This document shows, piece by piece, positions 3,690 through 38,623 of a stretch of DNA of 39,017 bases (position 1 is the stretch's first letter; every line of letters starts with the position of its first letter). The translations under genes and the position numbers were made by a program. Source of the DNA: Oscillospiraceae bacterium (lineage in GTDB: Bacteria; Bacillota; Clostridia; Oscillospirales; Acutalibacteraceae). The stretch spans positions 1 through 39,017 of the forward strand of contig SVQE01000019.1 in NCBI GenBank assembly GCA_015065505.1. Direction: 5' to 3'. The notes below the pieces were generated by a model, which saw only the letters and a list, made by a program, of their open reading frames with translations, ran no database searches and was not told the DNA's origin.

Positions 3690-5585
3690 GTGAAAAGAAT
3701 TACAGCAATTATTCTGTCCGTTTTAACGGTTCTTTTGTCATTTTCATTTTGTCAAACAGCCTTTGCGCTTAAAACAACCGATGTTGCAAGAACGCAGATT
3801 GGAACTTCGGATACTTATTATGAATTTAACGCAGAAACAAAAACGCTCACAATCAGCGGCAGCGGAGCAATACCCAATATGCTAAATGACGATACCTCAC
3901 AGCCGTGGTCATCGTGGCGTTCGGACGGCTCAATAGATAATGTTGTTATTGAAGAGGGAATAACGGCAGTGGGCAATTATGTTTTATATCAGGTGAGCGC
4001 CGAAAGCGTTCAGCTTCCCTCAACCCTTAAAAAAATCGGAAATTATGCGTTTGCGTATAATTCAAAGGTTAAAAGCTATGATGTGCCGTTCGGCGTTGAA
4101 ATGATTGGTGTAAGTGCGTTTGAAAACTGCATTTCAATGACAGAGGTTACTTTGCCGGACACAGTGAGCACCATAAGCAAAAACGCCTTTAAACAGTGCT
4201 ATAAGCTTGAAAGCGTGCGTATTCCATACAGCGTTACCTCTATGGGAAACTATGCTTTTCACCGCTGCTCCGAGCTCTCATGCGTTGAGTTTGAATCCCT
4301 CAGCACTGCCGTAAAAATCGGCAGCTATGCCTTTATGGCTTGCCCGAAGCTCGAAGAGGTCAGCGTACCGCTTAATGCAACCTTGAATAGTTATACTTTC
4401 GGCTATGACGACAGCAAAAAGAAGTATGACGGCTTTGCGATGAATGTTTATTCAGGCTCGGATGCCTTATCATATGCTATGGCAAAAGGCTTTGAATATA
4501 ATATGCTTGATAAGTTTCCGCTTAATCTCGGCATAATGAATTATAATGAATTCATTGAAGAAACGATTAACTACGAATATATCTATTCCTTCATTCCTTC
4601 TGCTTCAATGAAATACAACATATATTCCGTTGGCGATGTTGACTTAACAGCAGTGCTTTATGAAAATGAAGCCGAGCTTATTACAAGCGATGACATATCA
4701 AAGGATAATCTTAACTTCTGCTTATCGTATGAGCTTGAAGCAGGCAGGGAATACACCGTAAGCGTTAAATCCGTAAGGTCGGAAGGTGAATACGGCGTTG
4801 TTGTTTATCCCGATGTGATTAATTCATTTGACATTAAAGGAAGCCTTTCGTTTAATGCAGCCGATGGCGTGCTGAACGACGGCGGTATAAGAGTTTTTGA
4901 AATAACCGATGAAATGCTTGAAGGCTTTATTCTGACTATTGATTTTGAAGGCGGCTATAAGGATAAAATCTACTATGAAAACAAGTTCTTTGATAACCGT
5001 CAGATAGAAATTGCAGATACTCAGAGTAAAAATCCTTTAACCTGCGGAAACAACAGCTGCTTCGTTTCAATAGGCGAGGTGCTGAGTGCCTTTGATGTTT
5101 TTATTGAACACAGCTATGAGGAAGAAGTTATTCCGTATACGGTTGATGACGACGGATACTCTGTTTTCACCTGCGTTCTCTGCAAGGATACATATAAGGG
5201 CAATTTCGTTCCGACGCCTGCGGTTACAGTCAGCGGCAAGGCAGTGCTTATGGAAAAGCCCGACGGCTCACACGAGCACAATATTCCGTATCCATATGCA
5301 ACCTTCTTCGCAAACGACAGAACCTATTATATAGATGCTGAGGGTAATTTCAGCGTTAACACCTTCGACGACCTTGATTTGGTTTTTGAAAACGAAAACG
5401 GCAGAGATGTCAGCGTTCACATTGATGTTGACAGCGAGGATGTTGATTTCGGCTTCATTGCATTTGAAGGCTATGATTTCAACAAGGATAACTATGTTAA
5501 CGCAAAGGATTTTGCAATTTTCTTAAAAGAAAAGCAGAATAAATACGGTGAAGATTACTGGAAATATGCAATAAACTTCGTATAG
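3690..5585 (+). CDS. Secreted BspA-like leucine-rich-repeat protein with C-terminal dockerin-like loop
   Basis: The 631-residue product begins with a clear signal peptide (MKRITAIILSVLTVLLSFSF, cleavage after TAFA). Residues about 90-270 are BspA/LRR_5 repeats with the recurring pattern ESVQLPSTLKKIGNYAFAYN and VTLPDTVSTISKNAFKQCYK. A middle part of about 200 residues is unassigned, and about 510-590 resembles beta-sandwich segments. Near 595-613 the sequence DFNKDNYVNAKDFAIFL is an EF-hand-like calcium loop of dockerin type I, but only one copy is evident where dockerins have two. The start is a GTG preceded by AAGGGGGTGG. It has its own promoter and terminator. Role: probably surface adhesion or carbohydrate binding; the function is not certain. 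Confidence 0.85.
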   Translation: MKRITAIILSVLTVLLSFSFCQTAFALKTTDVARTQIGTSDTYYEFNAETKTLTISGSGAIPNMLNDDTSQPWSSWRSDGSIDNVVIEEGITAVGNYVLYQVSAESVQLPSTLKKIGNYAFAYNSKVKSYDVPFGVEMIGVSAFENCISMTEVTLPDTVSTISKNAFKQCYKLESVRIPYSVTSMGNYAFHRCSELSCVEFESLSTAVKIGSYAFMACPKLEEVSVPLNATLNSYTFGYDDSKKKYDGFAMNVYSGSDALSYAMAKGFEYNMLDKFPLNLGIMNYNEFIEETINYEYIYSFIPSASMKYNIYSVGDVDLTAVLYENEAELITSDDISKDNLNFCLSYELEAGREYTVSVKSVRSEGEYGVVVYPDVINSFDIKGSLSFNAADGVLNDGGIRVFEITDEMLEGFILTIDFEGGYKDKIYYENKFFDNRQIEIADTQSKNPLTCGNNSCFVSIGEVLSAFDVFIEHSYEEEVIPYTVDDDGYSVFTCVLCKDTYKGNFVPTPAVTVSGKAVLMEKPDGSHEHNIPYPYATFFANDRTYYIDAEGNFSVNTFDDLDLVFENENGRDVSVHIDVDSEDVDFGFIAFEGYDFNKDNYVNAKDFAIFLKEKQNKYGEDYWKYAINFV

Positions 5586-24869: not shown

Positions 24870-27800
24870 ATGAAAAAAATATTAAGCATTATTCTATCCC
24901 TAGCGCTTTTGCTGCAGATTCCCGTTTACAGCGCATTTGCAGTTGAAGGAAAAACACCTGTTTTAAGCTATAGCTTTGAAAACAGCGAAAACGCTCCGTC
25001 GCTTTTCGGAAACGCGGGCATTGTTTACAATGATGATAAAAGAGGCAATGTTTTATCCCTTGACGGAACAAGCGGAACATATGCCGAAATTCCGCGCGGA
25101 ACCTTCGATAATATGAATGTTATGACAATTCAGTTCGATGTTCTTCCGAACGACCAGTGGGGCAATTTCTTCACCTTCTGTTTTGGTGCGGATAATACTA
25201 AATATTCGTTCTTCAGAATGAGAAACAGCGGTGATAATAAAAACTTCTACAGCTGTTTATCAGTATCCTCCTGGCAGAATGAGCACGGTGTTGATTATAA
25301 CAGAGCAAACTATAACGGCTGGATGCATGTTGCTCTGGTTTATGATAACTACACGATGAAACTCTATGTTGACGGCGTGAAGGTTAAAGAAAACACGGAT
25401 ACAACCATCAGGGTTTCGGATTTGGGAAGCAATCTTTATTCCTATCTCGGCAAATCGCTCTATGACGGCGACGGCTTTTTCCACGGCTGTTTTGATAACT
25501 TTGAGGTTTACGACAGTGTTTTAACCGATGCAGAAATCGCGGCAACTGCCGAGGCAAATCTTCCCGAGGCTATGGCTTCGTTAAGATATACCTTTGAGGA
25601 CGGAACAACGCTTCCGACACTCAGCGGAAATGCAACAACCGTTTACGACAGCGAGCACGGCAGCAAGGTTTTATCGCTTGACGGAACAAACGGGGCATAT
25701 GCCGCAATTCCTCAGGGCTTTTTCGATAACAAGGATGAAATGACCATCCTTTTTGATATTAAAGCAGGCTCAAACAGCGGAAACTATTTCACCTTTGCTT
25801 TCGGTCAGGACAATGCGAAATACGACTTTTTCAGAGTTCGCGGTTCCGAGGTCAGAAACGCAATAACGCTTGACACCTATTACAGCGAGCGCGAGGTTAA
25901 AACCTCGGTTGAGTCGTCGGACAGCTGGATGAGCGTTGCGCTTGTTTTTGATAACGGAAAATGTCAGCTCTATGTTAACGGAACGCTTAAGGCAACCAAT
26001 AACGACGCTCATAAGGTATCCGACCTCGGAAGCAATCTGCTTGCGTATTTCGGTAAATCCTTCTACGACGGCGACGGATATTTCAACGGCTTATTTGATA
26101 ATTTTGAGGTATATGATAAAGTGCTTTCACCGCAGATGATACAGAATACTGCAAAGGCGCATCTTCCGCTTTTGCTCAGCGTTAATGTCGGCGAGGTTGT
26201 CAGCAATCTCGACGGCGTTTCGGGTACGGACAGCCACACAATGGTTAAAACCTCGATAAACAGAGCAAACGGCGAAATTACCTCTATTATTCAAAGAAGG
26301 CAGGATGCAACGGCAGTTCCCGTTAACTTCATATCCTTAAACAGCGACTGCGAAATCTATGTTGATTCACAGCCTTTCACAAATAACTCAACTCTTGATT
26401 TAACCTATAACAGAAGCGTTAGAATCGTTCACGGCGATACTGTTGAGGAATACACCTTAAAGGCTTCTGAAATTGCAAATAACCCCGTTTTACCGGGTAT
26501 GTATGCAGACCCCGATTTAGATGTTTTCGACGGCAAATTCTGGATTTATCCAACAACGGACGGCGTTGCAGGCTGGGGCGGAACTCAGTTCCACGCATTC
26601 TCATCCGAGGATATGGAAACCTGGACGGATGAAGGCGTTATTCTTGATAACAAGGATAAAAACCCCGGTCTTAACGAAAAGGGCATTCAGATTGCATCGT
26701 GCTCATGGTCAAACGGAAATGCCTGGGCGCCTTCAATCGAGAAGAAAAACGGCAAATACTATTTCTATTTCTGCGGAAGAATTCTTTCGGAATATGAATC
26801 AGCCTACGGTGAGGGAATGGCAATAGGCGTTGCGTGGGCTAATTCACCTGCAGGACCATATACCGCAAGCGATACCCCGATTCTCTATCCCAAAATGGTC
26901 AGCGACGCTAATATCGGCTATTCGGGTCAGGTTATAGACCCTGCGGTTTACACCGAGGGCGACACCTCATATCTTCTTTTCGGAAACGGCAATGCCGCAA
27001 TCGCAGAGCTTAATTCCGATATGCTGACTGTTAAAACCTCAACCCTTCGAAAGCTTGAGGGGCTCGACGGCTTCAGAGAAAGCGTTGCAGTTTTCAAGAG
27101 AAACGGCGTTTACTACTGGCACTGGTCGTGCGACGATACGGGCAGCGAAAACTACAGCGTTCACTACGGAACATCAACAAGCTTAACGGGCAATATAACC
27201 TATCGCGGTGCTCTTGTTGAAAAGGATACCTCGGCAGGCATTCTTGCAACAGGTCATCAGAGTGTTATTTATATTCCCGAAACTGATAAATGTTTTATTG
27301 CATACCACAGATTCTATACTCCGCTTTCAATCGGCGGTAATGTTGGCCACCACAGAGAAACCTGTATTGATGAAATAACCTTCAGCCGTAATGTCGGCGG
27401 TATTGATTTGCTTAATAAGGTTACGCCGTCAATGGCAGACGTCGGCAGGGTTAATATAAACGGAATGCCGATAAGCAGCTTTGATGCAACCTCGCTTGAA
27501 AACATAAAGCTTGAATGGGATTTCGGCTCAACGCCTTCAATAACATATCCTATGAATGCAACCTTCGGCGATTCTTCAATGACTCTTGTTTACTGGGGTG
27601 ATAATTCATATTATTATGACGGCTCAAACGGTCTTAGAACGGGCGACGGATACGCTTATATTGAAAATACTGCTTCAAAGCTTGAGGACGGAAAGGATAT
27701 CGACATTCAGCTCACAATGACAACGAATGAAAGATATAACGACCGTGAGGCAGGTACATTTGCAATAGGCTCTTCAAAGACATCGGGCGATGATTCAGCC

Positions 27801-29978
27801 TTTAATGATTTGCTCAGGCTTAAAAACGACGGCTCATTGCAGTATAGAGGAGCAGGCTCAACCGAGGATATCCGCGCAGGCGGGGCAAGCGGTGTTTCCC
27901 AGGGTGAGCACACCTACAGAATTTATTTCAGATACAGCACAAAAACTATTAGTGTTTATCAGGACGGCAAGCTCATAGGCTTCAAGCAGGATAACAATAT
28001 TTCAAAGAGCAGGTTCAATTTCCTTGCCTTCGGCGTATGGCGCGATACCTACTACGGCAAGAACACAATTAAAAAGCTGACTATTTCACAGCCCGATATC
28101 AAGGATTCGGGATATATCAATAAGGATACTCTTGTAAGCGGTATAACAAAGCAATCCGTTTCTCAAAGTATCGGCTATGCTTCGCTCGGAGCAGTTATTG
28201 ATGAAATAAACAGCAGTGAGTTCCAGAGTAGCTTTACTGAAATAAGAAACAATGAAAGCCTTTACACACCTTCATCAATAAAGAATTATTATGCAGCGCT
28301 GAACAGAGTTAAAAAATTCGACGCTTCGACGGCGGTTTACGATTATTCGAGCGGAACTACCGTAAGCGGTGCAGCGGATGAGGTTGCAAGCATTGTAAGC
28401 GATTTCAATGCATATAAAACACCCGAGCTTCGCGCTGATTTTTCAAAGCTTAAAAAGGCAGTTGATAAGGCTGATGCCTTCCTTTTAAGCCTTAACGGCA
28501 AGGCAGCACAGTTCGACGCCGAGTCTGTTGAAGCCCTTATAAGTGCAGTAAGCGCAAGCGATATTTCAACCTATCTTAATGCTGATGAGGCAACAAGGGC
28601 GGAATACGGTCAGGCAGTTCAGGCAAATGCAGATGCACTTGAAGAAGCTATCAACAATGCTTATAACTCGCTTAAGCTTTCCGTAACAGATACGGAAATA
28701 GATACAAGCGCATACGAAGCAGCTGTTGCAATTATCAACAATCCCGACCCCGATGCATATAATTTAACTTCATCAATCACAAGCGCACGCAATTCGGCAA
28801 ACACCCTTGTCGGAACATCAAGCGAAACATATAAAAATGTTACTATTAATGTTTTCGATGAAAACGCAAGTGAGGAAAATGTTAACGATGCAACGACAGC
28901 AATTCTCTCTGCGCTTTCAAACAGCGTTAGAACATATACTGTAACAACGCAGGGCGTTAGTGAAACAAGCTTTAAAAAAGGAACTGCAGAGGGCAGTGAA
29001 ACACCTTATACTGCAACCTACGGAACAACCGTTATCTGCAAATCTGATAATGATGAAACCGCCTGGTATATGGAAATCACTTCTGGCACAAGCCACAGAA
29101 AAGAGCAGTTCCAGGGCTACGGCAGGGGACTTGAAATGAAGGTTATGGGCAATATGACCATTAAGGCTGTTAAGCCCTCTGCAACAACATTTCAGGTTAA
29201 AATAGTTAGGGAATACAGCGACGCAAAAAACAAATATCCCGTTCAGCTTGTTGATTATATTACGGCAGGCTCAAGCTTCACTCTTCCTTCAGCGCCTGCG
29301 CTTGCATACTATTCCTTCGGCGGATATTATATCAGCGACGTTTTATGCACCGACGATGAAATAACCGTCAATGAGGATGTTGAAATTGTTGCTAAATACA
29401 ATGTTAACAGCGATGCTTCATGTGCAATCAACGCAACGGATATAAATAACGAGGCGCATAATTCCTCGGTGAACTATAACACAAAGGTATCGCTTCAGGG
29501 CGGTGCAGGAACATATGGCTGGGTTGAAGAAATAAGCGCAAACAGATTCAGACCTTTCTTCATCGGCGAGGATGTTGAGTTCTTCGCAAGCGAATCAACA
29601 ACGCTTAAAGCTGTTGATAAGGAAACCTTTGAAAGCTATAATTTCAATACTCCGTGTATCAACCTCAGAAAGAGCGGCGTAATTATTTCGGATGCGAAAA
29701 CCATATTCAACGCTCAGCTCTTTGATGCAAAGAAAGAGATTAAGGAATACGGAATTCTTATCGGAACGGGCGACATAACAGCAAATGAGCTTGTTATTGA
29801 AAACGCAGGAACTTATGAAGATTTCAGAGTTATCCGCGCTAAGTCAACAAGACTTGTCGGCGCAAATCAGTTTGCAATTTCCGTAAGAAATCTTAATGAT
29901 AGCTATATCTACAGAGGATATGTTATTTACGAAAACTCTAACAATGAATTTGTAACGGCATATACGGATATTATTTAG
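24870..29978 (+). CDS. Giant secreted GH43-family glycosidase with twin LamG domains
   Basis: The 1702-residue product has a signal peptide (MKKILSIILSLALLLQIPVY, cleavage after SAFA). Two homologous LamG/concanavalin-like domains follow (about 27-230 and 235-430; shared DLGSNL, GKS(L/F)YDGDG, F(E)VYD). A spacer precedes the five-bladed GH43 domain (about 541-858) with base D547 (YADPD), D690 (VIDPAVY) and acid E737 (FRESVAVF). Next come a third lectin-like domain (about 870-1085), a helical FIVAR-like part (about 1110-1320), InlB-like beta repeats (about 1340-1540) and an unassigned C-terminus. There is no dockerin, LPXTG or SLH anchor. GH43 members act on arabinan, xylan or galactan; the substrate is not decided. 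AGGAGGAGC precedes the ATG. Confidence 0.9.
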   Translation: MKKILSIILSLALLLQIPVYSAFAVEGKTPVLSYSFENSENAPSLFGNAGIVYNDDKRGNVLSLDGTSGTYAEIPRGTFDNMNVMTIQFDVLPNDQWGNFFTFCFGADNTKYSFFRMRNSGDNKNFYSCLSVSSWQNEHGVDYNRANYNGWMHVALVYDNYTMKLYVDGVKVKENTDTTIRVSDLGSNLYSYLGKSLYDGDGFFHGCFDNFEVYDSVLTDAEIAATAEANLPEAMASLRYTFEDGTTLPTLSGNATTVYDSEHGSKVLSLDGTNGAYAAIPQGFFDNKDEMTILFDIKAGSNSGNYFTFAFGQDNAKYDFFRVRGSEVRNAITLDTYYSEREVKTSVESSDSWMSVALVFDNGKCQLYVNGTLKATNNDAHKVSDLGSNLLAYFGKSFYDGDGYFNGLFDNFEVYDKVLSPQMIQNTAKAHLPLLLSVNVGEVVSNLDGVSGTDSHTMVKTSINRANGEITSIIQRRQDATAVPVNFISLNSDCEIYVDSQPFTNNSTLDLTYNRSVRIVHGDTVEEYTLKASEIANNPVLPGMYADPDLDVFDGKFWIYPTTDGVAGWGGTQFHAFSSEDMETWTDEGVILDNKDKNPGLNEKGIQIASCSWSNGNAWAPSIEKKNGKYYFYFCGRILSEYESAYGEGMAIGVAWANSPAGPYTASDTPILYPKMVSDANIGYSGQVIDPAVYTEGDTSYLLFGNGNAAIAELNSDMLTVKTSTLRKLEGLDGFRESVAVFKRNGVYYWHWSCDDTGSENYSVHYGTSTSLTGNITYRGALVEKDTSAGILATGHQSVIYIPETDKCFIAYHRFYTPLSIGGNVGHHRETCIDEITFSRNVGGIDLLNKVTPSMADVGRVNINGMPISSFDATSLENIKLEWDFGSTPSITYPMNATFGDSSMTLVYWGDNSYYYDGSNGLRTGDGYAYIENTASKLEDGKDIDIQLTMTTNERYNDREAGTFAIGSSKTSGDDSAFNDLLRLKNDGSLQYRGAGSTEDIRAGGASGVSQGEHTYRIYFRYSTKTISVYQDGKLIGFKQDNNISKSRFNFLAFGVWRDTYYGKNTIKKLTISQPDIKDSGYINKDTLVSGITKQSVSQSIGYASLGAVIDEINSSEFQSSFTEIRNNESLYTPSSIKNYYAALNRVKKFDASTAVYDYSSGTTVSGAADEVASIVSDFNAYKTPELRADFSKLKKAVDKADAFLLSLNGKAAQFDAESVEALISAVSASDISTYLNADEATRAEYGQAVQANADALEEAINNAYNSLKLSVTDTEIDTSAYEAAVAIINNPDPDAYNLTSSITSARNSANTLVGTSSETYKNVTINVFDENASEENVNDATTAILSALSNSVRTYTVTTQGVSETSFKKGTAEGSETPYTATYGTTVICKSDNDETAWYMEITSGTSHRKEQFQGYGRGLEMKVMGNMTIKAVKPSATTFQVKIVREYSDAKNKYPVQLVDYITAGSSFTLPSAPALAYYSFGGYYISDVLCTDDEITVNEDVEIVAKYNVNSDASCAINATDINNEAHNSSVNYNTKVSLQGGAGTYGWVEEISANRFRPFFIGEDVEFFASESTTLKAVDKETFESYNFNTPCINLRKSGVIISDAKTIFNAQLFDAKKEIKEYGILIGTGDITANELVIENAGTYEDFRVIRAKSTRLVGANQFAISVRNLNDSYIYRGYVIYENSNNEFVTAYTDII

Positions 29979-29990
29979 AAGATGTAAAAT

Positions 29991-30030
29991 AAAAAAACGA
30001 TTGGTGAGCAATTCACCAATCGTTTTTTTG
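29991..30030. terminator. Bidirectional terminator between GH43 and the c-di-GMP operon
   Basis: AACGATTGGTGA pairs with TCACCAATCGTT around five bases, with seven A before and seven T after. It ends both converging units. Confidence 0.95.
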
Positions 30031-30034
30031 TTGT

Positions 30035-31936
30035 TTATTTTTTAATAAGCTCTGCCAGTGTTTCAAATATTCTATCCGGCTCAATCGGCTTTGAAAGATG
30101 GGCGTTCATTCCTGCTTTGAAGGAGCGTTCAACATCCTCATCAAAAACATTTGCAGTCATTGCAATAATCGGAATTTCCCTTGCGTCCTCTCTTTCAAGA
30201 GCGCGGATTGTTTCGGTTGCCGTCAGTCCGTCCATAACGGGCATACGCACATCCATAAGAATTGCATCGTAGTAGCCCTTTTCATGCTCAGAGAACATAT
30301 CAACCGCAATCTGACCGTTTTCTGCTCTTTCGCTTTCCATTTCCTCAAGCTCAAGAATATCTGCAAGGATTTCCGCATTCGCTTCAACATCCTCAACAAT
30401 CAAAACGCGCTTGCCCGAAAGTATGCTTTGCTCAAGGGCTTCCTTTTCCTCCTGCTCGTGGCTAACTATAACATCCTTTTTCTTTTCAAGTAAAGAGGAT
30501 ATATGATGAAGCAGAACCTCGGAAAAGAGAGGCCTTGTTAAGATAATATCAATGCCGTCGTTCTTTGCCTCGTCCTCAATGGAATCCCAGTTATAGCCCG
30601 TGAGCAATATTATAATTGTTTTATCTCCGCTGATTTTGCGAAGCTGTTTTGTAAGCTCAAGACCGTCTATTTTCGGCATTTTATAGTCCGTTATAACAAT
30701 GTCGTAGGGAACGCCGTTACTGATTGCGGAATTAAACATATCAACTGCCGCGCTTGCAGACATAACCCAGTCTGTCTGAATATCCATCGAGCTTAAAACA
30801 AGCATTGCGTGCTCGCAGGCGATTTCATCATCGTCAACAATAAGTGCGCGAAGGTCTTTGGGAAGAACAAAACCATGCTTTGAAAAATAACTCTGCTCGG
30901 ATTTGCCAAGCTCAACCGTAACGGTGAAAACAGAGCCAACGCCCTTTTTACTTTCAACCTCAACGGTTCCGTTCAACATTTCAATGAAGTTTTTGCTTAT
31001 TGCCATTCCAAGACCGCTGCCGCCGTATTTATTGGTTGTTGTTGTATCTTCCTGCGAAAATGCATCAAAAAGCTTTGGTATGAAATCATCGTCCATTCCG
31101 ATTCCCGTATCCTTCATTATGAACTGAAGAATGCACTTTTCATCGTTTTGCTCAAGCTGTTTAACCGTGAGCGAAACCGTACCCGGTGAATCGGTGAACT
31201 TAACCGAGTTGCCGAGAATGTTGATAAGAACCTGCTTTAACTTCATTTCGTCGCCGAAATAGTAATCATTCGGATGCCCCTCAATATGGCATTCATAGTT
31301 TAAGCCCTTATCCATACATTGACCGTGGATGATAATGCTTACCTGGTCAATGAATTCTCTGAAAGAAAACTCCTCATTTTTAAGCACCATTCGTCCCGAT
31401 TCAATTCGGCTCATATCGAGTATATCATTGATAAGTGCAAGCAGATGATTGGCGCTTGCGCCAATTTTTTCAAGCTGTTCGCGTGTTTTGGGCTTTAAAT
31501 CATCGTCGCGCAGTGCCAGATTGTCAAGCCCGATAATTGCATTCATCGGGGTTCTGATTTCGTGGCTCATATTTGAAAGAAAACGGGTTTTCGCTTCGCT
31601 TTCGAGCTTAGCCGCTTCAATTTCTGCCTGCATTTGCCCGTTAATCTGAATTCTGCGTTCAATACGCCTCATAAGAAGAACCATTATAAACACAAATATG
31701 CTTCCGCCAAAGAGTATGCCTGCAACAACCAGATCAGGATGGCCAAACAGCGCAACCGCTATGTAGCCGACCAGAAACAGAAACAGCAGAATAACAGGCA
31801 GCCGCAATATGTTTGCTTCGCTCTTCCAGTCTCCGCGTGCTCTTATTTCACGGGAAAAACGAACATATTTATAAATATTTAACGCCATAAGGGCAATGCC
31901 CAAATATATCATAACCTGAATAAGAATAATTTTCAT
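30035..31936 (-). CDS. Membrane hybrid histidine kinase with two receiver domains
   Basis: The 633-residue product has three hydrophobic segments at the N-terminus (about 1-20, 46-64, 68-90) with almost no external loop, a coiled coil, HisKA with phospho-acceptor in MSHEIRTPMNAIIG (about 124-137), HATPase_c (NILGNSVKFTD, DTGIGM, GGSGLGMAIS), receiver 1 (about 366-485: IVDDDE, ITDYKMPKIDG) and receiver 2 (about 512-630: IVEDVEAN, LMDVRMPVMDG, SKPIE). Receiver 1 has LTRPLF where the conserved Lys-Pro is expected, so its switching may be altered. It is the last gene of the operon. The likely path is His to Asp in receiver 2, to the Hpt protein next door, to the REC-EAL protein (inference). Confidence 0.93.
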   Translation of the reverse strand: MKIILIQVMIYLGIALMALNIYKYVRFSREIRARGDWKSEANILRLPVILLFLFLVGYIAVALFGHPDLVVAGILFGGSIFVFIMVLLMRRIERRIQINGQMQAEIEAAKLESEAKTRFLSNMSHEIRTPMNAIIGLDNLALRDDDLKPKTREQLEKIGASANHLLALINDILDMSRIESGRMVLKNEEFSFREFIDQVSIIIHGQCMDKGLNYECHIEGHPNDYYFGDEMKLKQVLINILGNSVKFTDSPGTVSLTVKQLEQNDEKCILQFIMKDTGIGMDDDFIPKLFDAFSQEDTTTTNKYGGSGLGMAISKNFIEMLNGTVEVESKKGVGSVFTVTVELGKSEQSYFSKHGFVLPKDLRALIVDDDEIACEHAMLVLSSMDIQTDWVMSASAAVDMFNSAISNGVPYDIVITDYKMPKIDGLELTKQLRKISGDKTIIILLTGYNWDSIEDEAKNDGIDIILTRPLFSEVLLHHISSLLEKKKDVIVSHEQEEKEALEQSILSGKRVLIVEDVEANAEILADILELEEMESERAENGQIAVDMFSEHEKGYYDAILMDVRMPVMDGLTATETIRALEREDAREIPIIAMTANVFDEDVERSFKAGMNAHLSKPIEPDRIFETLAELIKK

Positions 31937-31968
31937 AGAATAAACCTTTGCTTCTCAGAGTGAAGAAA

Positions 31969-32340
31969 TTATGCCTGCGAGGCATATTCGTTAATGCCGC
32001 TGACGGTTTTATTGTAAAGCGCTTTTATATCGTCAATCTTTTTCAAAACCTCTTCATCGGTCATTTTTCTTTCATTTCCGGGGCGGAATTCCTCTGTTAT
32101 TTCGCTTGCCATAGCTGAAAGCTTAAACAAGCCCAGATTAGCGCAAACGCCCTTGATTGCGTGCGCGCTTTCAAATAAAGCATTTGCATCCATACTGTTT
32201 GCGGCATCAAAAAGCTGCTCAAAAAGAGGATTTGAGGGAAATTTTTTAATATGCTTATCCATAAGCTTTTCAATGCTTAAAATCTGCATTGCCTTATCGT
32301 AATCGCCATCAATTTTTGCGTAGAGTTCTTTAAGATTCAT
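31969..32340 (-). CDS. Free-standing Hpt phosphotransfer protein
   Basis: The 123-residue all-helical protein has the Hpt motif ESAHAIKGVCANLGL with the phospho-accepting histidine at about residue 60 and the lysine and glycine that define the family; the second helix LSAMASEITEEF completes the bundle. It has no other domain. It sits between the hybrid kinase gene (32 bp) and the REC-EAL gene (3 bp), which is the right place for the relay step between them. The ribosome binding site (GAAAGGAATTG) overlaps the end of the previous gene, so translation is probably coupled. Confidence 0.9.
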   Translation of the reverse strand: MNLKELYAKIDGDYDKAMQILSIEKLMDKHIKKFPSNPLFEQLFDAANSMDANALFESAHAIKGVCANLGLFKLSAMASEITEEFRPGNERKMTDEEVLKKIDDIKALYNKTVSGINEYASQA

Positions 32341-32343
32341 AAC

Positions 32344-34038
32344 TCAATTCCTTTCGGTGTTGATTTCGTTAATGATTATTTCTTCAAATTCCTCGGCAGG
32401 AACGGGGCGTGAGAAATAGTAGCCCTGAACAATTCGGCAGCCTGCCTTTTTAAGAATATCAAGCTGTTCGCGGTATTCAATACCCTCTGCAATAACAGTT
32501 AAATTAAGGTGCTTTGCGATATCGAGAATCAGCGTAACAAGTCGGCGGTCGGTTTCGTTTACGGCAATATTCCTGATGAATTTCATATCCATTTTCAAAA
32601 CATCAACGGGCATTGCCGAAAGCATATTAAGCGAGGAATAGCCGCTGCCGAAATCATCCATTTCAATAACAAAGCCTGCTTCCTTTAGCTTTTTAATCAA
32701 AGCAACAATATCTTCGGCATCCTGAGTATATGCCGATTCGGTTATTTCAAGCTTTAAGTCATTATGGTTTAAACCGTTTTTCTCAATAAGCTCGTTGAGC
32801 TTTTCAATAAGCGCTCCGTCAAAAATATCCGAGCGCGAAACATTAACCGAAACGGGAAGCTCAAAATCAAATTTTTTCTTCCACTTTGCAATCTGCTCGG
32901 TTGTGTTCTGCCACACGAAGTTGTCAACAACGCTGATAAGTCCGTTTCCTTCAAAAAGAGGAATGAATGCACCCGGCGTGATAAAGCCAAGCTCGGGGTG
33001 CACCCAGCGAATAAGCGCTTCGGCGCTTACAAGCTTCGGGGGATTGCACTGAATATCATATTTCGGCTGATAGAAAACCTTAAGCTGATTTTGCTCAACC
33101 GCGTTTTTTAAATCATTAAGAAGCCTTCTGTCAAGAATTTCCTTCTGACGCATTTCCTCGTTGAAAATCATAAGAGGATTGCTGTAGTTTCCGCGAACCT
33201 TGCTGCAGGCTGTGCTTGCGTGGTCGAACATTGTTATGGGGTTTAAGTCCTCCTGCCACAGCATAACGCCCATTCTGAGATGAACATTAACATTAGGGAA
33301 TGCCGCGTCAATTTCATTTTGAAAATGAGTTAAAACCAATTTGTAATTATCGCGCTGAGCGCAGTAAATGCAGAAGCTGTCCGCTTCAAATCTGCCTGCA
33401 ATACCCGTTGTTTCGCTTAAGAATGTGCGAATAATTCCGCCGAGAGAGCTTAAAATATTGTCGCCGAATTCTCTGCCGTTAACTGCGTTTATTGAATGGA
33501 ACTGCTCAATGTTTAAAACGATTGCATCATAGTGCGTTTCGGGATGATATGTGAAAAGGCGTGTTGCATATTCATAGAAGAAATTGCGCGTGTAGAGCAT
33601 AGTGAGCTTGTCGCGTTCTGCCTTTGAAATCAGCTGGCGCCCGTCGCTGAGCTCAATAATTCTTGCAACTCGTGCAAGAATAACCCTGTGAATATCAAAG
33701 GGCTTTGTTATGAAATCAACTGCGCCGAGCTCGAGAGCTTTTAATTCTGCTTCCTTCTCTGATGTTAAAACTATAACGGGAAGCTTTCTTAAATCCTCGT
33801 CCTTGTGCATTTCCTCAAGAACCTCAAAGCCGTTCATAACGGGCATAATGAGGTCGAGCATAACAAGCGAAAGATTGTCAACATCCTGCTGCATACATTC
33901 AAGAGCTTCCTTGCCGTTTTCGGCAAAGCAAAGCTCATATTCATCCTCAAGAATTGTTTCAAGAATGTCGCGGTTCAGTTCCTGGTCGTCAACAATCAGA
34001 ATCCTGTGCCTTTTTTTAATCTCGTTGGTTTTAATCAT
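32344..34038 (-). CDS. Response regulator with degenerate GGDEF and EAL (c-di-GMP phosphodiesterase)
   Basis: The 564-residue protein has receiver (about 12-130; IVDDQE, phospho-Asp in VMLDLIMPVMNG, Lys in FITKPFD), a GGDEF-fold domain (about 135-300) whose signature is RFEADSF instead of GGDEF and so cannot be a normal cyclase, and EAL (about 312-558). The EAL domain keeps the catalytic set: SAEALIRW, VNVSRSD, LEITES, EMDDFGSG, LKMDMKF, IAEGIE, VQGYYF. It should hydrolyse c-di-GMP to pGpG under phosphorylation control. Its start overlaps the end of the upstream SBP-EAL gene by 8 bp, and Hpt follows 3 bp after. It has no membrane segment. Confidence 0.93.
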   Translation of the reverse strand: MIKTNEIKKRHRILIVDDQELNRDILETILEDEYELCFAENGKEALECMQQDVDNLSLVMLDLIMPVMNGFEVLEEMHKDEDLRKLPVIVLTSEKEAELKALELGAVDFITKPFDIHRVILARVARIIELSDGRQLISKAERDKLTMLYTRNFFYEYATRLFTYHPETHYDAIVLNIEQFHSINAVNGREFGDNILSSLGGIIRTFLSETTGIAGRFEADSFCIYCAQRDNYKLVLTHFQNEIDAAFPNVNVHLRMGVMLWQEDLNPITMFDHASTACSKVRGNYSNPLMIFNEEMRQKEILDRRLLNDLKNAVEQNQLKVFYQPKYDIQCNPPKLVSAEALIRWVHPELGFITPGAFIPLFEGNGLISVVDNFVWQNTTEQIAKWKKKFDFELPVSVNVSRSDIFDGALIEKLNELIEKNGLNHNDLKLEITESAYTQDAEDIVALIKKLKEAGFVIEMDDFGSGYSSLNMLSAMPVDVLKMDMKFIRNIAVNETDRRLVTLILDIAKHLNLTVIAEGIEYREQLDILKKAGCRIVQGYYFSRPVPAEEFEEIIINEINTERN

Positions 34039-36256
34039 TATCAGGAGTTCCTTCCTTTAACTTTTCAAAATCTTCAATCGGCATCGGCTTATAGAAATAA
34101 TAGCCCTGCATAGCGTTTGCGCCCTTGCTTTGAAGGAAATCAGCCTGCTCGGCGGTTTCAACGCCCTCGGTTATAAGCTCAATTTCAAGCTCACGAATCA
34201 TCTGAATCACACAGCTTAAAATTGTTTCGCTCTTCTTTTCATTGCCCGATGAGGTTAAGAAATTAAGGTCGAGCTTAATTCTGTCAACGCTAACCTCTTT
34301 AAGCATATTAAGCGAGGAATAACCGCTGCCGAAATCATCCATTTCAACCTTAAAGCCGTATTCTCTGAGCTTATTTGTTGTATTTATAAGCTCCTCGGTG
34401 TCCTCAACATAGGCGCTTTCCGTTATTTCAATATGAAGCTGGTCAGGGGATATATTATATTTCTTAATCAGATTGCTGAATAGCTCGGGAATATTTCTGT
34501 CCTCTCTGATATCAAGGCGCGAAACATTGATTGAAAAAGCAATATGTATGCCTTTTTCATTAAGCGCGCTCAAATCGCGGCAAACCGTTTCCCAAACATA
34601 TTTATCCAAATCAAAGACAAGCCCCGTATCCTCTAAAATCGGTATGAATTCCGAAGGGGATATAACGCCGAGCTTTTTGTGATTCCATCTGCTCAGTGCT
34701 TCAGCGCCGATAATTTCTTTGGTTTCATAGTTAATCTGAGGCTGATAATAAACCTGAATGTCGCCCGATTCAATGGCTGAGGGCAGGGAATAGATAATAT
34801 CCGCCATTCGCTTGCCTTTTTCCCACTGCTCGGGGTTATAAAACGCGAAGTTGTTATCGTGGTTCTTGCGAACTCTTTTCTCTGCAATAAGCGCCATATC
34901 AAGCATATGGTCAACATCAATGTTTTTATGGTCGTTCGGGGTAAGAACATATATTCCGCTGCAGAGATTAACCGGATTTTCCTTGCCTCTGTCTATGAAA
35001 TAATTTCTTACAGGGTTGATAACATTAATTTCATCCGAGCGCATATCCTCATCGGAAATAATATTGCGAAGCACTGCAAAACGGTCGGCAGTAATTCTTC
35101 CTATTGCCTCGTTTTCTTTCAGAGATTCCTTGGAAATCTGTGCCCAGAATTTAAGCAGCTCGTCGCCTTCGCTTCTGCCGAACCTGTCGTTAATAAACTT
35201 GAAATCCCTGATGTTGTTGTATGAAAGGAAATACGGAATTTTGGGATTTTCACGAAGCAGCTCTTCAACGCGTTTTCTGAAGCCATCCATACTTAAAATG
35301 CCTGTAAGAGGGTCGTGAGTTATTAGATTCTGAATATCCTCGTTATGCCTTTTTTTCATAACTTTTATTTTCTCGACTGCAATTATAATAATTGCAAGGA
35401 AGAGAAGGAAAGCAAGAAGAATTATAAGCCAGTAGGAATATATAAAATCGTAAAAATCGTATTTATAAAGCCTTCTTGAAGTGTAATCAAGTGTTACTGC
35501 CTGACGGCGTGTGTCGCTTATCTGTGCAATTCCCGTGTTAAGACGGCTGATGATTGCAGCACCCTCGGGGGTGTTGGTTGTTCCAACTCGGAAATCCATT
35601 GTAAACATAGTTGAGGGCTGAACTATCAAATCCGAATATGCAGGCTTTTGCAGAACATAGCTCCAAACAAACGAATTGTGAAGCAGTGCGTCAACCTCGT
35701 TTGCGCGGAGTGCCTTAACGCAGTCGTCCATTGTTTCAAAGGTTACAATAACCATTCCGGGATAGATATTGTTAATGCTTTCTGCAATGCCTCTTTGTGA
35801 TTGAAGCATTCCAACCTTAAGACTGCCGAACGGGGGGAGCTCGCGCTTTCCTTCGGTTACAAGGGTGAAAGGTGTTTGAATAAGATTTTCCGAAACGATT
35901 GTAGCTTTGCCCGAGGCGCTGTCAATCGCGCTTCCGAAAGGCATAAGAACATCGTATTTATCGCTGTCGAGCGCTTCTTTAAGCGAGGGCTCGCTTATCT
36001 GCTGAAAAACAACCTTGTAGCCTGCTTCCTGAGCAGCAGTGAACATAAGGTCAGCGCCGATTCCCGTTATTTCATTCGTTTCATTGTCGATATAGAATAT
36101 CGGGCATCTGTCTGTTGGAACGCCGACAATAAGTGTATCTTCATTATTATCTGCTGTTTCGGCATAAGCAGGCACAGTGAGGGATAACAAAACTGATAAA
36201 CAAATAATAATTGCAAAAAGCCTTTTTGCTATTCCTTTGCTTTTCAAAGCTTTCAC
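34031..36256 (-). CDS. Transmembrane SBP_bac_3 sensor with degenerate GGDEF and EAL (c-di-GMP phosphodiesterase)
   Basis: The 741-residue product has a signal sequence (KRLFAIIICLSVLLSLTVPA), an external SBP_bac_3 domain (about 38-265; LIVGVPTDRCPIFYIDNETN, GADLMFTAAQEAGYKVVFQQ), one membrane helix (about 275-297), a GGDEF-fold domain (about 312-470) with ITADRF in place of the signature, and EAL (about 490-735) with GAEALSRW, INVSRLD, IEITES, EMDDFGSG, IKLDLNF, TEGVE and MQGYYF all present. SBP_bac_3 domains commonly bind polar amino acids, so ligand outside would tune c-di-GMP breakdown inside. It follows the permease-GGDEF gene by 53 bp and overlaps the next gene by 8 bp. Confidence 0.93.
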   Translation of the reverse strand: MKALKSKGIAKRLFAIIICLSVLLSLTVPAYAETADNNEDTLIVGVPTDRCPIFYIDNETNEITGIGADLMFTAAQEAGYKVVFQQISEPSLKEALDSDKYDVLMPFGSAIDSASGKATIVSENLIQTPFTLVTEGKRELPPFGSLKVGMLQSQRGIAESINNIYPGMVIVTFETMDDCVKALRANEVDALLHNSFVWSYVLQKPAYSDLIVQPSTMFTMDFRVGTTNTPEGAAIISRLNTGIAQISDTRRQAVTLDYTSRRLYKYDFYDFIYSYWLIILLAFLLFLAIIIIAVEKIKVMKKRHNEDIQNLITHDPLTGILSMDGFRKRVEELLRENPKIPYFLSYNNIRDFKFINDRFGRSEGDELLKFWAQISKESLKENEAIGRITADRFAVLRNIISDEDMRSDEINVINPVRNYFIDRGKENPVNLCSGIYVLTPNDHKNIDVDHMLDMALIAEKRVRKNHDNNFAFYNPEQWEKGKRMADIIYSLPSAIESGDIQVYYQPQINYETKEIIGAEALSRWNHKKLGVISPSEFIPILEDTGLVFDLDKYVWETVCRDLSALNEKGIHIAFSINVSRLDIREDRNIPELFSNLIKKYNISPDQLHIEITESAYVEDTEELINTTNKLREYGFKVEMDDFGSGYSSLNMLKEVSVDRIKLDLNFLTSSGNEKKSETILSCVIQMIRELEIELITEGVETAEQADFLQSKGANAMQGYYFYKPMPIEDFEKLKEGTPDND

Positions 36257-36309
36257 CGCCCTTTCGTTGTAATGTTAAAATAGATTTTTAATAACTTTGA
36301 GCTGCGTTA

Positions 36310-38544
36310 TCATTCGCGGATAACGGCGCCCATACTCTTGAGCTGCTTTTTGCGCTCGTACATAAGCGCGTCAGCGCGCTTGAAAACATCGTGAATATTC
36401 TTATCGGTTTCGCTGTTATATTCAGCGAGTCCCAGTGAAATAACAACACTGTCGGTGCCGATGTTTTCTTCAATTACTCTGTTGATATCATCAATTATTT
36501 CATTTCGGGATTTATAGTCGCGTCCTTCAAGGAGAATAACAAATTCATCGCCGCCTATTCTGAATACGGGGCTGTGAGCAAAGTATTCACAAAGCATATT
36601 GCACGAGCAGCAGATATATTTATCGCCTGCCTTGTGACCAAGGGTATCGTTAATCCTTTTAAGTCCGTTAACATCGCAGACTATAAGTCCGAATTCTTCA
36701 AGGGTTCCTTCTTCTATCTGGTAATCAATAATTGCTTCCTGTTCTTCAAAAGCGTGCTTGCTTTTAACGCCCGTAAGCGTGTCTGTAAATGCAATAGTTC
36801 GCGCGTGGTCGCGTTCGGCGGAGGCTATGCTTTCCCATTTTCGCATTGAACGGTAGTTGGAATAAAGAACCGCAATCGAAGTTCCGAATATAAAAATTAT
36901 GATTAATGAAGAAACATTGCTGATGCTTGATAACGCCTGACGCTGGTCTTCAAAGAAATCATCAGTTTTTTTAGAGGATTCATTATCCTCATCATCGTAA
37001 TAATGGCTCTGAATAGTGTTTATAACATCATTCTGTCTGCTTTCGTTAATTCTTTGAACCAATGTCATAAGCATTATAACCATGAATATAAGAAGCGCAA
37101 TCCAGACGATAATTGCTTTACCGAAATTCCTTGCATGGTCCTTTTTAATAACGCGGTTGAAGAACAGCAAGCCAAGCAGCGACCAGGCAATCATCAATGC
37201 GTATGATTCCGTTTCAATCGTGTGGTCTGAGAAAAGACCGGGGAATAACAGATAGAATAAAAACAGTGCAAGAATAACAAGGCATATGCTGCTTAAGATA
37301 ATATCCTTGCGGCACTTCTCTTCTCTTGAAGCCTTGAAAACTGCAATGGAAGCAAAGCCGTAAATGATTGTTGAGCCGAAGGTTGTTGTGTCAACAATCC
37401 AGCCGATAGCCGTTCTGCCAAGGAAGGGAATAGGCAGTGAAACTATTAAAACAAGAAGTATTGTGTTATAGGGGATATTCTTCTTATTAAGCTTTGTAAA
37501 TGCTTTTGAAAGAATACCGTCCTGTGCAACGCCGTAGCAAAGTCGGCTGAGAGCTCTCATCATTCCTATAAGGCTTGAGAAAACAAGCGCAACCAGCGAA
37601 GCCATAAGGATATAAACGCCGCTTTGTCCTAAATAATGATGTGCAGCGTAGAATGCGGGTAAGCCTTCAATACCTTCATAATCATCAAGGTGGGTTATGT
37701 AATCAAGCCAGCTGCTGCATCCCTCGGGATATGCGCTGACGCTTAAAACAACAAGGAAGATATAAAGCGCTGTGATAACAATAAGTGATACAAGAAGTAT
37801 GTTGAATAATTTTTTGTGTGTAAATTTGTATTCCTCGGAGTAGTGCGAAACACTTTCAAATCCGATGAATGCCCACGGCGAAATAAATGCAATATGGGTT
37901 ATCTGCCTTAAATGGCTTGCATCGGGAATAAACGCAGGCTTCATTGTCATTCCCGAGCTCGGGTGTTTAATCATAGCAACCGCAAAGCAAACGGATATGC
38001 CGATTACAAAAATAAATGCAAGCGCTGTCATAATCCGTGCGGTAAGCTTGTTGCTGTACATACTGATTAGGGCAATAATAACAATAACTGCAAGGGTTAT
38101 AATAACTTCACCAAGATAAACATCATAACCGAAAACCGTGTAAAGATGCCCGAAGCTGAAAATGCCGTGTAGGAAATAACGCGCAAACAGCGGAACGCTT
38201 GTTGCATTTGCCCAGAAAACGGAAATATAAACCAAAAACAGATACCACGCAACAAGAAAGGCTCTGTCGTATCCGAAGATGTTTTTAATGTAGTTATAAA
38301 GTCCGCCTGCTTCTGGATAGCGTGCTGATAAGAAATGATAATGGCTTGCAACCATAAGCATCATTGCAATTCCTATCAGCAGTCCGATGATTGAACCAAG
38401 AGGACCTGCCTGCGAAATATAGTTGGTGTTGGTAACAATTAAAGAGCCCCATCCGATTGCCGAGCCGACTGAAAATGCCCAGACTGCAATCGGAGAGAGA
38501 TATGGCTGTAAGCCAACCGTATTCTTTGCTGATTTATTATCCAT
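36310..38544 (-). CDS. Amino-acid permease (APC family) fused to an active-type GGDEF diguanylate cyclase
   Basis: The product is 744 residues from the ATG at 38544. An upstream in-frame ATG at 38595 lies before the predicted transcription start, while GAGGAAGTATT precedes 38544. Residues about 1-490 are an APC-superfamily transporter with about 12 helices (YLSPIAVWAFSVGSAIGWGS, ISPWAFIGFESVSHYSEEY, RALSRLCYGVAQDGILS). Two further helices (about 480-500, 548-568) flank an acidic external loop (YYDDEDNESSKK). The C-terminal 172 residues are GGDEF: TDTLTGVKSKHAF, LIVCDVNGLKRINDTLGH, and an intact RIGGDEF at 664-668. The inhibitory RxxD site is absent. This predicts c-di-GMP synthesis controlled by amino-acid binding or transport. 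It is the first gene of the operon. Confidence 0.92.
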   Translation of the reverse strand: MDNKSAKNTVGLQPYLSPIAVWAFSVGSAIGWGSLIVTNTNYISQAGPLGSIIGLLIGIAMMLMVASHYHFLSARYPEAGGLYNYIKNIFGYDRAFLVAWYLFLVYISVFWANATSVPLFARYFLHGIFSFGHLYTVFGYDVYLGEVIITLAVIVIIALISMYSNKLTARIMTALAFIFVIGISVCFAVAMIKHPSSGMTMKPAFIPDASHLRQITHIAFISPWAFIGFESVSHYSEEYKFTHKKLFNILLVSLIVITALYIFLVVLSVSAYPEGCSSWLDYITHLDDYEGIEGLPAFYAAHHYLGQSGVYILMASLVALVFSSLIGMMRALSRLCYGVAQDGILSKAFTKLNKKNIPYNTILLVLIVSLPIPFLGRTAIGWIVDTTTFGSTIIYGFASIAVFKASREEKCRKDIILSSICLVILALFLFYLLFPGLFSDHTIETESYALMIAWSLLGLLFFNRVIKKDHARNFGKAIIVWIALLIFMVIMLMTLVQRINESRQNDVINTIQSHYYDDEDNESSKKTDDFFEDQRQALSSISNVSSLIIIFIFGTSIAVLYSNYRSMRKWESIASAERDHARTIAFTDTLTGVKSKHAFEEQEAIIDYQIEEGTLEEFGLIVCDVNGLKRINDTLGHKAGDKYICCSCNMLCEYFAHSPVFRIGGDEFVILLEGRDYKSRNEIIDDINRVIEENIGTDSVVISLGLAEYNSETDKNIHDVFKRADALMYERKKQLKSMGAVIRE

Positions 38545-38593: not shown

Positions 38594-38623
38594 ATTATAT
38601 ATCAAATAGAGTGCAACCGTCAA
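38594..38623 (-). promoter_or_regulatory. Strong SigA-type promoter of the c-di-GMP operon
   Basis: On the minus strand TTGACG (38623-38618), 18 bp, perfect TATAAT (38599-38594). The predicted start near 38587 gives a leader of about 43 bases, too short for a riboswitch, and excludes the upstream ATG at 38595 as start of the first gene. Confidence 0.85.

Follow-up and report, generated by a model that had tools for sequence, protein, structure and literature searches.

A putative c-di-GMP set-point operon with a permease-fold cyclase in an Oscillospiraceae bacterium, and the permease module in its relatives

Gene layout of the cluster

Five open reading frames (ORFs) on the minus strand occupy positions 30035–38544 of a 39,017-nucleotide stretch of DNA (the window) from an Oscillospiraceae bacterium, and encode what look like the parts of a circuit for cyclic diguanosine monophosphate (c-di-GMP; Table 1). 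The window is a complete contig (SVQE01000019.1, G000:C4) of a 2.3 Mb genome in 95 contigs (assembly GCA_015065505.1), with a completeness of 88.95 %. An earlier description of the DNA, made from the letters alone and here called the original prediction, had reported five same-strand genes separated by 53, −8, 3 and 32 bp, with which the ORF coordinates agree. Pfam searches identified AA_permease_2 and GGDEF domains in gene 1, SBP_bac_3, GGDEF and EAL in gene 2, REC, GGDEF and EAL in gene 3, Hpt in gene 4, and HisKA, HATPase_c and two REC domains in gene 5, in which no sensor domain was recognised by Pfam. These assignments bear out the single-domain Hpt protein and the hybrid kinase with two receivers of that prediction. 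The distribution of catalytic motifs was also as described: the diguanylate cyclase signature (GGDEF/GGEEF) is intact only in gene 1, while the corresponding position reads TADRF in gene 2 and EADSF in gene 3. Both of these genes keep the catalytic motif set of the EAL domain, which scores above 220 bits in each.

Table 1. Genes and candidate transcription signals of the cluster
Feature	Position in window	Strand	Basis
Gene 1, 744 aa (amino acids): permease-fold membrane domain, two-helix hairpin, GGDEF	36310..38544	-	Pfam, AlphaFold2, Foldseek, motif counts
Gene 2, 741 aa, GTG start: N-terminal hydrophobic segment, type-3 solute-binding domain, transmembrane segment, degenerate GGDEF, EAL	34031..36256	-	Pfam, hydropathy
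Gene 3, 564 aa: REC-degenerate GGDEF-EAL, putative phosphorylation-controlled phosphodiesterase	32344..34038	-	Pfam, motifs, tree
Gene 4, 123 aa: single-domain Hpt with AHAIKG phosphoacceptor-type motif	31969..32340	-	Pfam, motif, adjacency to genes of the gene 3 type
Gene 5, 633 aa: membrane hybrid histidine kinase HisKA-HATPase-REC-REC, short N-terminal membrane part	30035..31936	-	Pfam, tree, receiver motifs
Promoter-like site TTGACG-18-TATAAT upstream of gene 1	38594..38623	-	Consensus match only, 11/12
Intrinsic terminator-like hairpin, 17 pairs, just past gene 5	29991..30029	-	Consensus match only

A purine-rich, ribosome-binding-like stretch lies upstream of all five starts. The longest ORF of gene 1 begins at 38595, and the ATG at 38544 was preferred as the start because of the ribosome-binding-like site found there and its fit to homologues; the promoter-like site ends approximately 50 nt ahead of this ATG. 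The original prediction placed the genes behind one strong promoter and before one terminator. Candidate sites for both are present, but such sites are no commoner in this region than in shuffled sequence (23 promoter-like sites versus 22.0, and 10 terminator-like sites versus 10.8), and a second promoter-like site, also matching 11 of 12 positions, lies on the same strand within gene 2 (35925–35898). Because this match is equally good, an internal promoter is possible, and these results tell against giving weight to the candidate promoter and terminator.

The predicted permease-fold cyclase

The membrane domain of gene 1 (residues ~1–470) is followed by two hairpin helices (477–516 and 527–586) and by the GGDEF motif at residue 664. 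Pfam scores were 114 bits for AA_permease_2 and 80.6 bits for GGDEF. An AlphaFold2 model built from 45 sequences had a mean pLDDT (predicted local distance difference test) of 85.1 and a pTM (predicted template modelling score) of 0.71. When the membrane part was searched with Foldseek, the top 17 rows were all amino-acid transporters, SLC7-type proteins included (AdiC, LAT1, y+LAT1, GkApcT and others), with template modelling scores by target of 0.67–0.80, placing this part in the APC-superfamily fold. By sequence, the best solved matches were a plant cationic amino-acid transporter and GkApcT (E values of 3e-11 to 5e-11). Hydropathy peaks at 478–496 and 544–562 fall within the hairpin helices and suggest that both span the membrane, with the second continuing into the GGDEF domain. 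Identity as an SLC5/STAC transceptor was rejected, as Pfam gives AA_permease_2/AA_permease and no SSF, and the connector is a two-helix hairpin; no STAC-specific search was made.

In an alignment of 77 proteins, the most conserved stretches include the GxxxGWG segment of helix 1 and the SPWAFIGFE segment of helix 6, the region of the substrate site in the APC fold. The first GGDEF motif is intact in 75 of the 77, with the remaining two aligning as RGDEF and AGMNS. None of the proteins carries the RxxD product-inhibition site; at its usual place 76 read F/Y-x-H-S and one reads FKRS. This absence indicates that the cyclase of gene 1 is probably not product-inhibited at the usual site.

Permease modules in relatives

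To GTDB species genomes an alignment of the permease and hairpin was applied, giving at least 597 pattern matches, and at least 564 places encode some relative at E≤1e-3. Locus counts for the permease–hairpin unit refer to the best 80 of these at least 564 relatives and lean to close relatives. All 80 locus titles are those of metagenome-assembled or uncultured genomes, and many of the loci are cut by contig ends near the permease gene. Domain models for the loci were built from the window's own domains, with a Pfam cross-check of 10 proteins in each of three sets.

An intact APC-hairpin-GGDEF arrangement was found at 75 of the 80 loci (all except L068, L101, L112, L115 and L117). At 54 of these 75 the frame continues into REC and a degenerate GGDEF domain, with 53 reaching EAL, and the complete fused proteins (n=48) are 1319–1495 aa long. 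The other 21 loci (22 proteins) stop after GGDEF; four of them hold a REC-GGDEF-EAL gene in the same gene run. Two tested fused proteins and one APC-HisKA-HATPase-REC-REC protein were confirmed by Pfam. The same module also occurs on histidine kinases, some having receivers and others none (13 of 99 rows of an APC tree to which class and phylum genomes had been added), and on HD-GYP domains that show the motifs HD and HHE[RK][YW]DG[TS]GYP (L137, L138), so the permease unit looks like an exchangeable input. The hairpin goes with the signalling versions, since five plain permease relatives (G154, G112, G167, G603 and G536) stop at profile position 459–467, before it; three output-bearing permease proteins were unmatched by the hairpin model (L138, L083:13446 and L148:8944). 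The permease–hairpin unit thus looks like a modular receptor with several outputs, a feature overlooked by the original prediction.

The APC tree was made by a quick method that gave a long-branch warning, with permease stretches of less than 330 aa (e.g. those of G006 and L094) omitted. Split and fused forms interleave in this tree: the fused label requires 10 parsimony changes, at least five of them forced by starred branches, and the kinase label only two. Rows titled Actinomycetota, Chloroflexota and Pseudomonadota sit among Bacillota rows, all of these labels being submitters' titles only, and this placement suggests lateral transfer of the permease module.

The module is uncommon. At E 1e-60, 11 of 391 class genomes matched, comprising seven with an output domain (source genome counted), three plain permeases and one broken frame, while six of 398 genomes matched in a phylum draw, four of them with an output (source genome counted); in these searches, as in those made with genes 2 and 3, at most three candidates were scored per genome and copies may be missed. 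Only one of 36 same-genus genomes (G006) matched the permease part over most of its length, with a permease-PAS-GGDEF variant, and G006 and G039 were the only such matches among 60 relatives. Immediate neighbours of the permease gene are more often signalling genes (30 of 124) than are genes three or more places away (20 of 308; Fisher P=8e-7), in counts that omit domain-less ORFs of less than 130 aa and loci without a plus-strand permease gene (L112, L115).

Two individual loci of this group have unusual structures. The variant gene of G006 (L033, G006:C9, 8084–11602) has one in-frame TAG early in the permease part, for which decay, assembly error or recoding are possible. Tandem pairs of permease proteins of 810–838 aa with histidine-kinase-like ATPase ends occur in G795 and G474 (L148, 6504–11406; L149, 393–5382).

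The putative receiver phosphodiesterase and its candidate phosphorelay

Among 65 rows of the gene 3 type, the second, post-receiver GGDEF is degenerate and the receiver Asp is present in all 65. The EAL motif is found in 64, MDDFG in 62 and QGY in 61, the remainder being gaps. Judged by these motifs, the architecture separates predicted synthesis, beside the permease, from predicted breakdown, beside the receiver; the two share one chain at 54 loci, whereas in the window they are encoded by separate genes. Separate genes also lie in one run at L050, L051, L087, L105 and L134. In a tree of gene 3 relatives, 55 fused and 13 stand-alone forms fall on opposite sides of a single branch with 100/100 support, which rules out genes 1 and 3 of the window as a simple split of a fused gene. 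With all 55 fused tails on one side, one fusion followed by repeated tail loss or exchange is a simpler history than many fusions.

A search with gene 3, in which the permease was not used, matched 33 places in the 391 class genomes, of which 30 became loci. Stand-alone REC-GGDEF-EAL genes of 554–609 aa were present at 19 of the 30, and a same-strand Hpt gene adjoins 17 of the 19 (16 of 18 outside the window; exceptions L174 and L183). HxxKG is found in all of those Hpt proteins; the window Hpt as a single query finds all of them (weakest E 0.01), and the Pfam Hpt model matched all 10 proteins tested, nine above the curated cut-off and one, from L194, just below. Nine of the 17 Hpt pairs, that of the window among them, have a kinase gene in the 1.5 kb to either side, in one case on the opposite strand. 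Both above-cut-off Hpt places in the source genome directly adjoin a REC-GGDEF-EAL gene, one in the window and one at L036.

Every component of a phosphorelay is present in genes 5, 4 and 3: HisKA, HATPase, receiver Asp, Hpt His and target receiver Asp. In the first receiver of gene 5 an Arg occupies the position at which 17 of 19 aligned kinases (clear cases only) show Lys, and the motifs of the second receiver are intact. The best matches to the kinase-receiver part of gene 5 are the APC-kinases of L106, L108 and L110 (63–64 % identity), and its kinase core falls in a clade of six (99/97 support) together with the APC-kinases of these three loci and of L135. The gene order at L106 and L135 (kinase, REC-GGDEF-EAL, Hpt, APC-kinase) matches the order of genes 3, 4 and 5 in the window, with the permease module sitting on the kinase. 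At L041 a fused permease-GGDEF-REC-GGDEF-EAL gene is followed by Hpt and HK-REC-REC (HK, histidine kinase); apart from the merging of the gene 1 and gene 3 architectures and the lack of gene 2, this is the order in the window. L050 has the order SBP-HK-REC-REC (SBP, solute-binding protein), REC-GGDEF-EAL, Hpt, APC-GGDEF.

Other arrangements of these genes were also seen. L036 (G000:C18, 8772–14093), in the source genome, is a paralogous relay with an Hpt/REC-GGDEF-EAL pair and a divergent 1039-aa HK-REC-REC kinase. At L045 (13371–14182) and L081 (13365–14131) the fused protein is followed by Hpt and then by a stand-alone receiver gene, with 4 bp overlaps at each, which suggests a longer relay.

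Gene 2 and other c-di-GMP genes of the genome

No close relative of gene 2 was found at the best 80 loci, where the best match had 36 % identity and covered the GGDEF-EAL part only. Full-length relatives numbered two among 291 class genomes (G161 and G279; 56–57 % identity), and both adjoin other GGDEF genes. Gene 2 is therefore best seen as a less conserved, local addition. Alignments of its binding domain to amino-acid-binding proteins are weak and place other residues at the Arg and Asp positions of those proteins; on these grounds gene 2 was rejected as a canonical amino-acid receptor.

The source genome contains five EAL places and nine places matching the GGDEF part of gene 1, window counted, some of them weakly. 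A second c-di-GMP cluster (L035, G000:C81, 5126–15173) encodes a GGDEF-GGDEF-EAL protein of 1283 aa, two GGDEF proteins and a 973-aa SBP-GGDEF-EAL protein.

A candidate set-point switch and its alternatives

We consider it fairly likely that the operon is a c-di-GMP set-point switch, in which a transporter-like receptor sets synthesis and a kinase–Hpt relay sets breakdown by gene 3. Gene 1 would be a 'transceptor', a receptor made from a transporter of the amino-acid-permease fold, in which binding or transport of a small solute would move the two-helix hairpin and the attached GGDEF domain and so set c-di-GMP synthesis. In opposition, the hybrid kinase of gene 5 would phosphorylate its own receivers and the Hpt protein of gene 4 would pass the phosphate to the receiver of gene 3, whose phosphorylation would set c-di-GMP breakdown by the EAL domain. 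Gene 2 may contribute a second, binding-protein-gated phosphodiesterase. Ligand sensing by the permease part, the direction of each control, the phosphotransfer route, the catalytic activities and co-transcription are what we infer from the genes.

The single c-di-GMP unit of the original prediction was supported for four of the five genes. Genes 1, 3, 4 and 5 look, from their sequences, like one functional set, given the fusion at 54 of 75 loci, the Hpt pairing and the gene 5-type kinases beside some of these genes; gene 2 fits weakly. Conservation of the five-gene order, which had been proposed as a check, was not seen at the best 80 loci (many cut by contig ends), in the further stretches examined or in the 60 relatives, so a conserved five-gene operon was rejected.

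The absence of a shared order from these loci is one of several findings that weigh against a set-point switch. A kinase or Hpt gene lies in the same run at only 11 of the 54 fused loci, many contigs ending nearby, and some of the best 80 loci are near-identical pairs, hence not all independent. The sixth member of the gene 5 clade, the kinase of L071, lacks a permease and pairs with gene 5 at 80/80, and the specificity of phosphotransfer cannot be read from sequence. No PilZ or MshEN domain was found in the ~89 % complete genome, other receptor types lying outside the search, and the c-di-GMP-I riboswitch (RF01051) was not found in the source genome by a search that matched 28 of 60 class genomes. 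With no Rfam match within the window either, the idea of a c-di-GMP riboswitch or PilZ protein at hand was rejected; the absence of the three receptor types searched points to another type of effector, a lead given the missing tenth or so of the genome.

Some of the same evidence would fit two circuits with only a loose link, gene 1 as a permease-cyclase complete in itself and genes 3–5 as a kinase–Hpt–phosphodiesterase relay of their own, shuffled together with gene 2 and having only the c-di-GMP pool in common. At 17 of the 21 split APC-GGDEF loci no REC-GGDEF-EAL gene lies in the same run, for most gene 3-Hpt pairs of the class search the 1.5 kb to either side contains no permease gene, and the branch between stand-alone and fused REC-GGDEF-EAL forms likewise speaks for such a division and against the set-point switch. 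However, the permease-GGDEF unit is joined to a REC-GGDEF(-EAL) tail at most of the 75 loci, five loci hold the separate genes in one run, and the best matches to gene 5 themselves bear the permease module. We therefore regard two circuits as unlikely, although deserving of serious consideration.

A second alternative is that gene 1 is chiefly a working amino-acid transporter, its uptake regulated by the cytoplasmic GGDEF domain, and no receptor for synthesis. Conservation of the helix-1 and helix-6 motifs is expected of a retained substrate site, and the fold matches working SLC7/AdiC transporters. Against this, the retention of GGDEF together with the universal absence of RxxD is the reverse of what a c-di-GMP-binding regulator would show, the module is likewise joined to kinases and HD-GYP domains, and the plain permease relatives end before the hairpin. 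This explanation appears quite improbable. Still less credible is that the source genome keeps one part or several only as decayed or non-signalling remnants, as the degenerate GGDEF domains of genes 2 and 3, the Arg in the first receiver of gene 5 and the altered Arg/Asp places of the gene 2 binding domain might imply, for all five frames are open, the EAL, Hpt, HisKA and second-receiver motifs are intact, and a degenerate second GGDEF is the norm (65 of 65 rows).

Comparison with known systems

VieSAB- and PvrR-type systems reportedly pair a hybrid kinase with a receiver-EAL phosphodiesterase; the match of gene 3 to the PvrR model was below cut-off. In comparison, the window adds a stand-alone Hpt protein and a permease-cyclase, and many relatives have the cyclase and REC-EAL as one protein. 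Unlike SBP-GGDEF receptors such as PDB 5gzs, to which its binding part gave a weak match (E 0.21), gene 2 bears a degenerate GGDEF together with EAL.

Fusion of a transporter to an output has precedents. CbrA, CrbS and RpuS (SLC5/STAC) are described as having a solute transporter domain and signalling output in one chain, with a proposed coupling of substrate to signalling (PMC13022988; PMC9100948), and CbrA, a transporter-kinase fusion, is still termed a rare transceptor (PMC13022988). The gene 1 family is alike in its transporter–output fusion but has an APC-type amino-acid permease, a two-helix hairpin in place of STAC as connector and, at the best 80 loci, a diguanylate cyclase as its main output. 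The ammonium sensor kinase Ks-Amt5 is a former transporter made into a sensor by fusion of a cytoplasmic output (PMC5764959); as described there it differs in its Amt fold, trimeric state and kinase output. Receptors of the 5TMR/S-component fold combine a transporter-like membrane fold modularly with GGDEF, EAL or kinase domains (PMC11109136) and have another membrane fold and no amino-acid permease domain. By analogy, the operon may work like these transporter-based receptors, here with c-di-GMP outputs. No description of an APC-GGDEF receptor was found in the literature searched, which consisted of open-licence papers, with domain-architecture listings outside its scope.

The stronger finding lies beyond the operon itself: in gut bacteria the permease–hairpin unit has the look of an interchangeable receptor linked to c-di-GMP and kinase outputs. 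To our judgement the chances are evenly balanced that it represents an undescribed, mobile receptor family of gut anaerobes, in which a permease fold and a two-helix membrane coupler together form a sensor that can be swapped among cyclases, HD-GYP phosphodiesterases and kinases. The commonest form among the best 80 loci would then be a single protein of 1319–1495 residues joining a nutrient receptor, a c-di-GMP synthase and a phosphorelay-gated phosphodiesterase, with separate inputs for both enzymes. Such a family would tie a permease-type receptor to c-di-GMP, which controls attachment and biofilm life, at the 75 checked loci and possibly at many of the at least 564 matched places. It would open to experiment a possible path by which the supply of amino acids or peptides in the rumen and gut reaches c-di-GMP, and would allow study of the means by which a transporter fold might drive a cyclase; the fused form would amount to a set-point device for c-di-GMP that nature has built as one protein.

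Neighbouring genes

The terminator-like hairpin past gene 5 also faces a convergent plus-strand gene (24870–29978), which encodes a 1702-aa GH43/laminin-G-like protein and has the hairpin in common with the operon. A foreign composition of the operon was considered and not adopted, its GC content (0.42) being that of the remaining window, with no sign either way. Elsewhere, the window contains GH2 and melibiase-type genes, and a gene for a BspA-type leucine-rich-repeat protein of 631 aa lies on the plus strand at 3690–5585.

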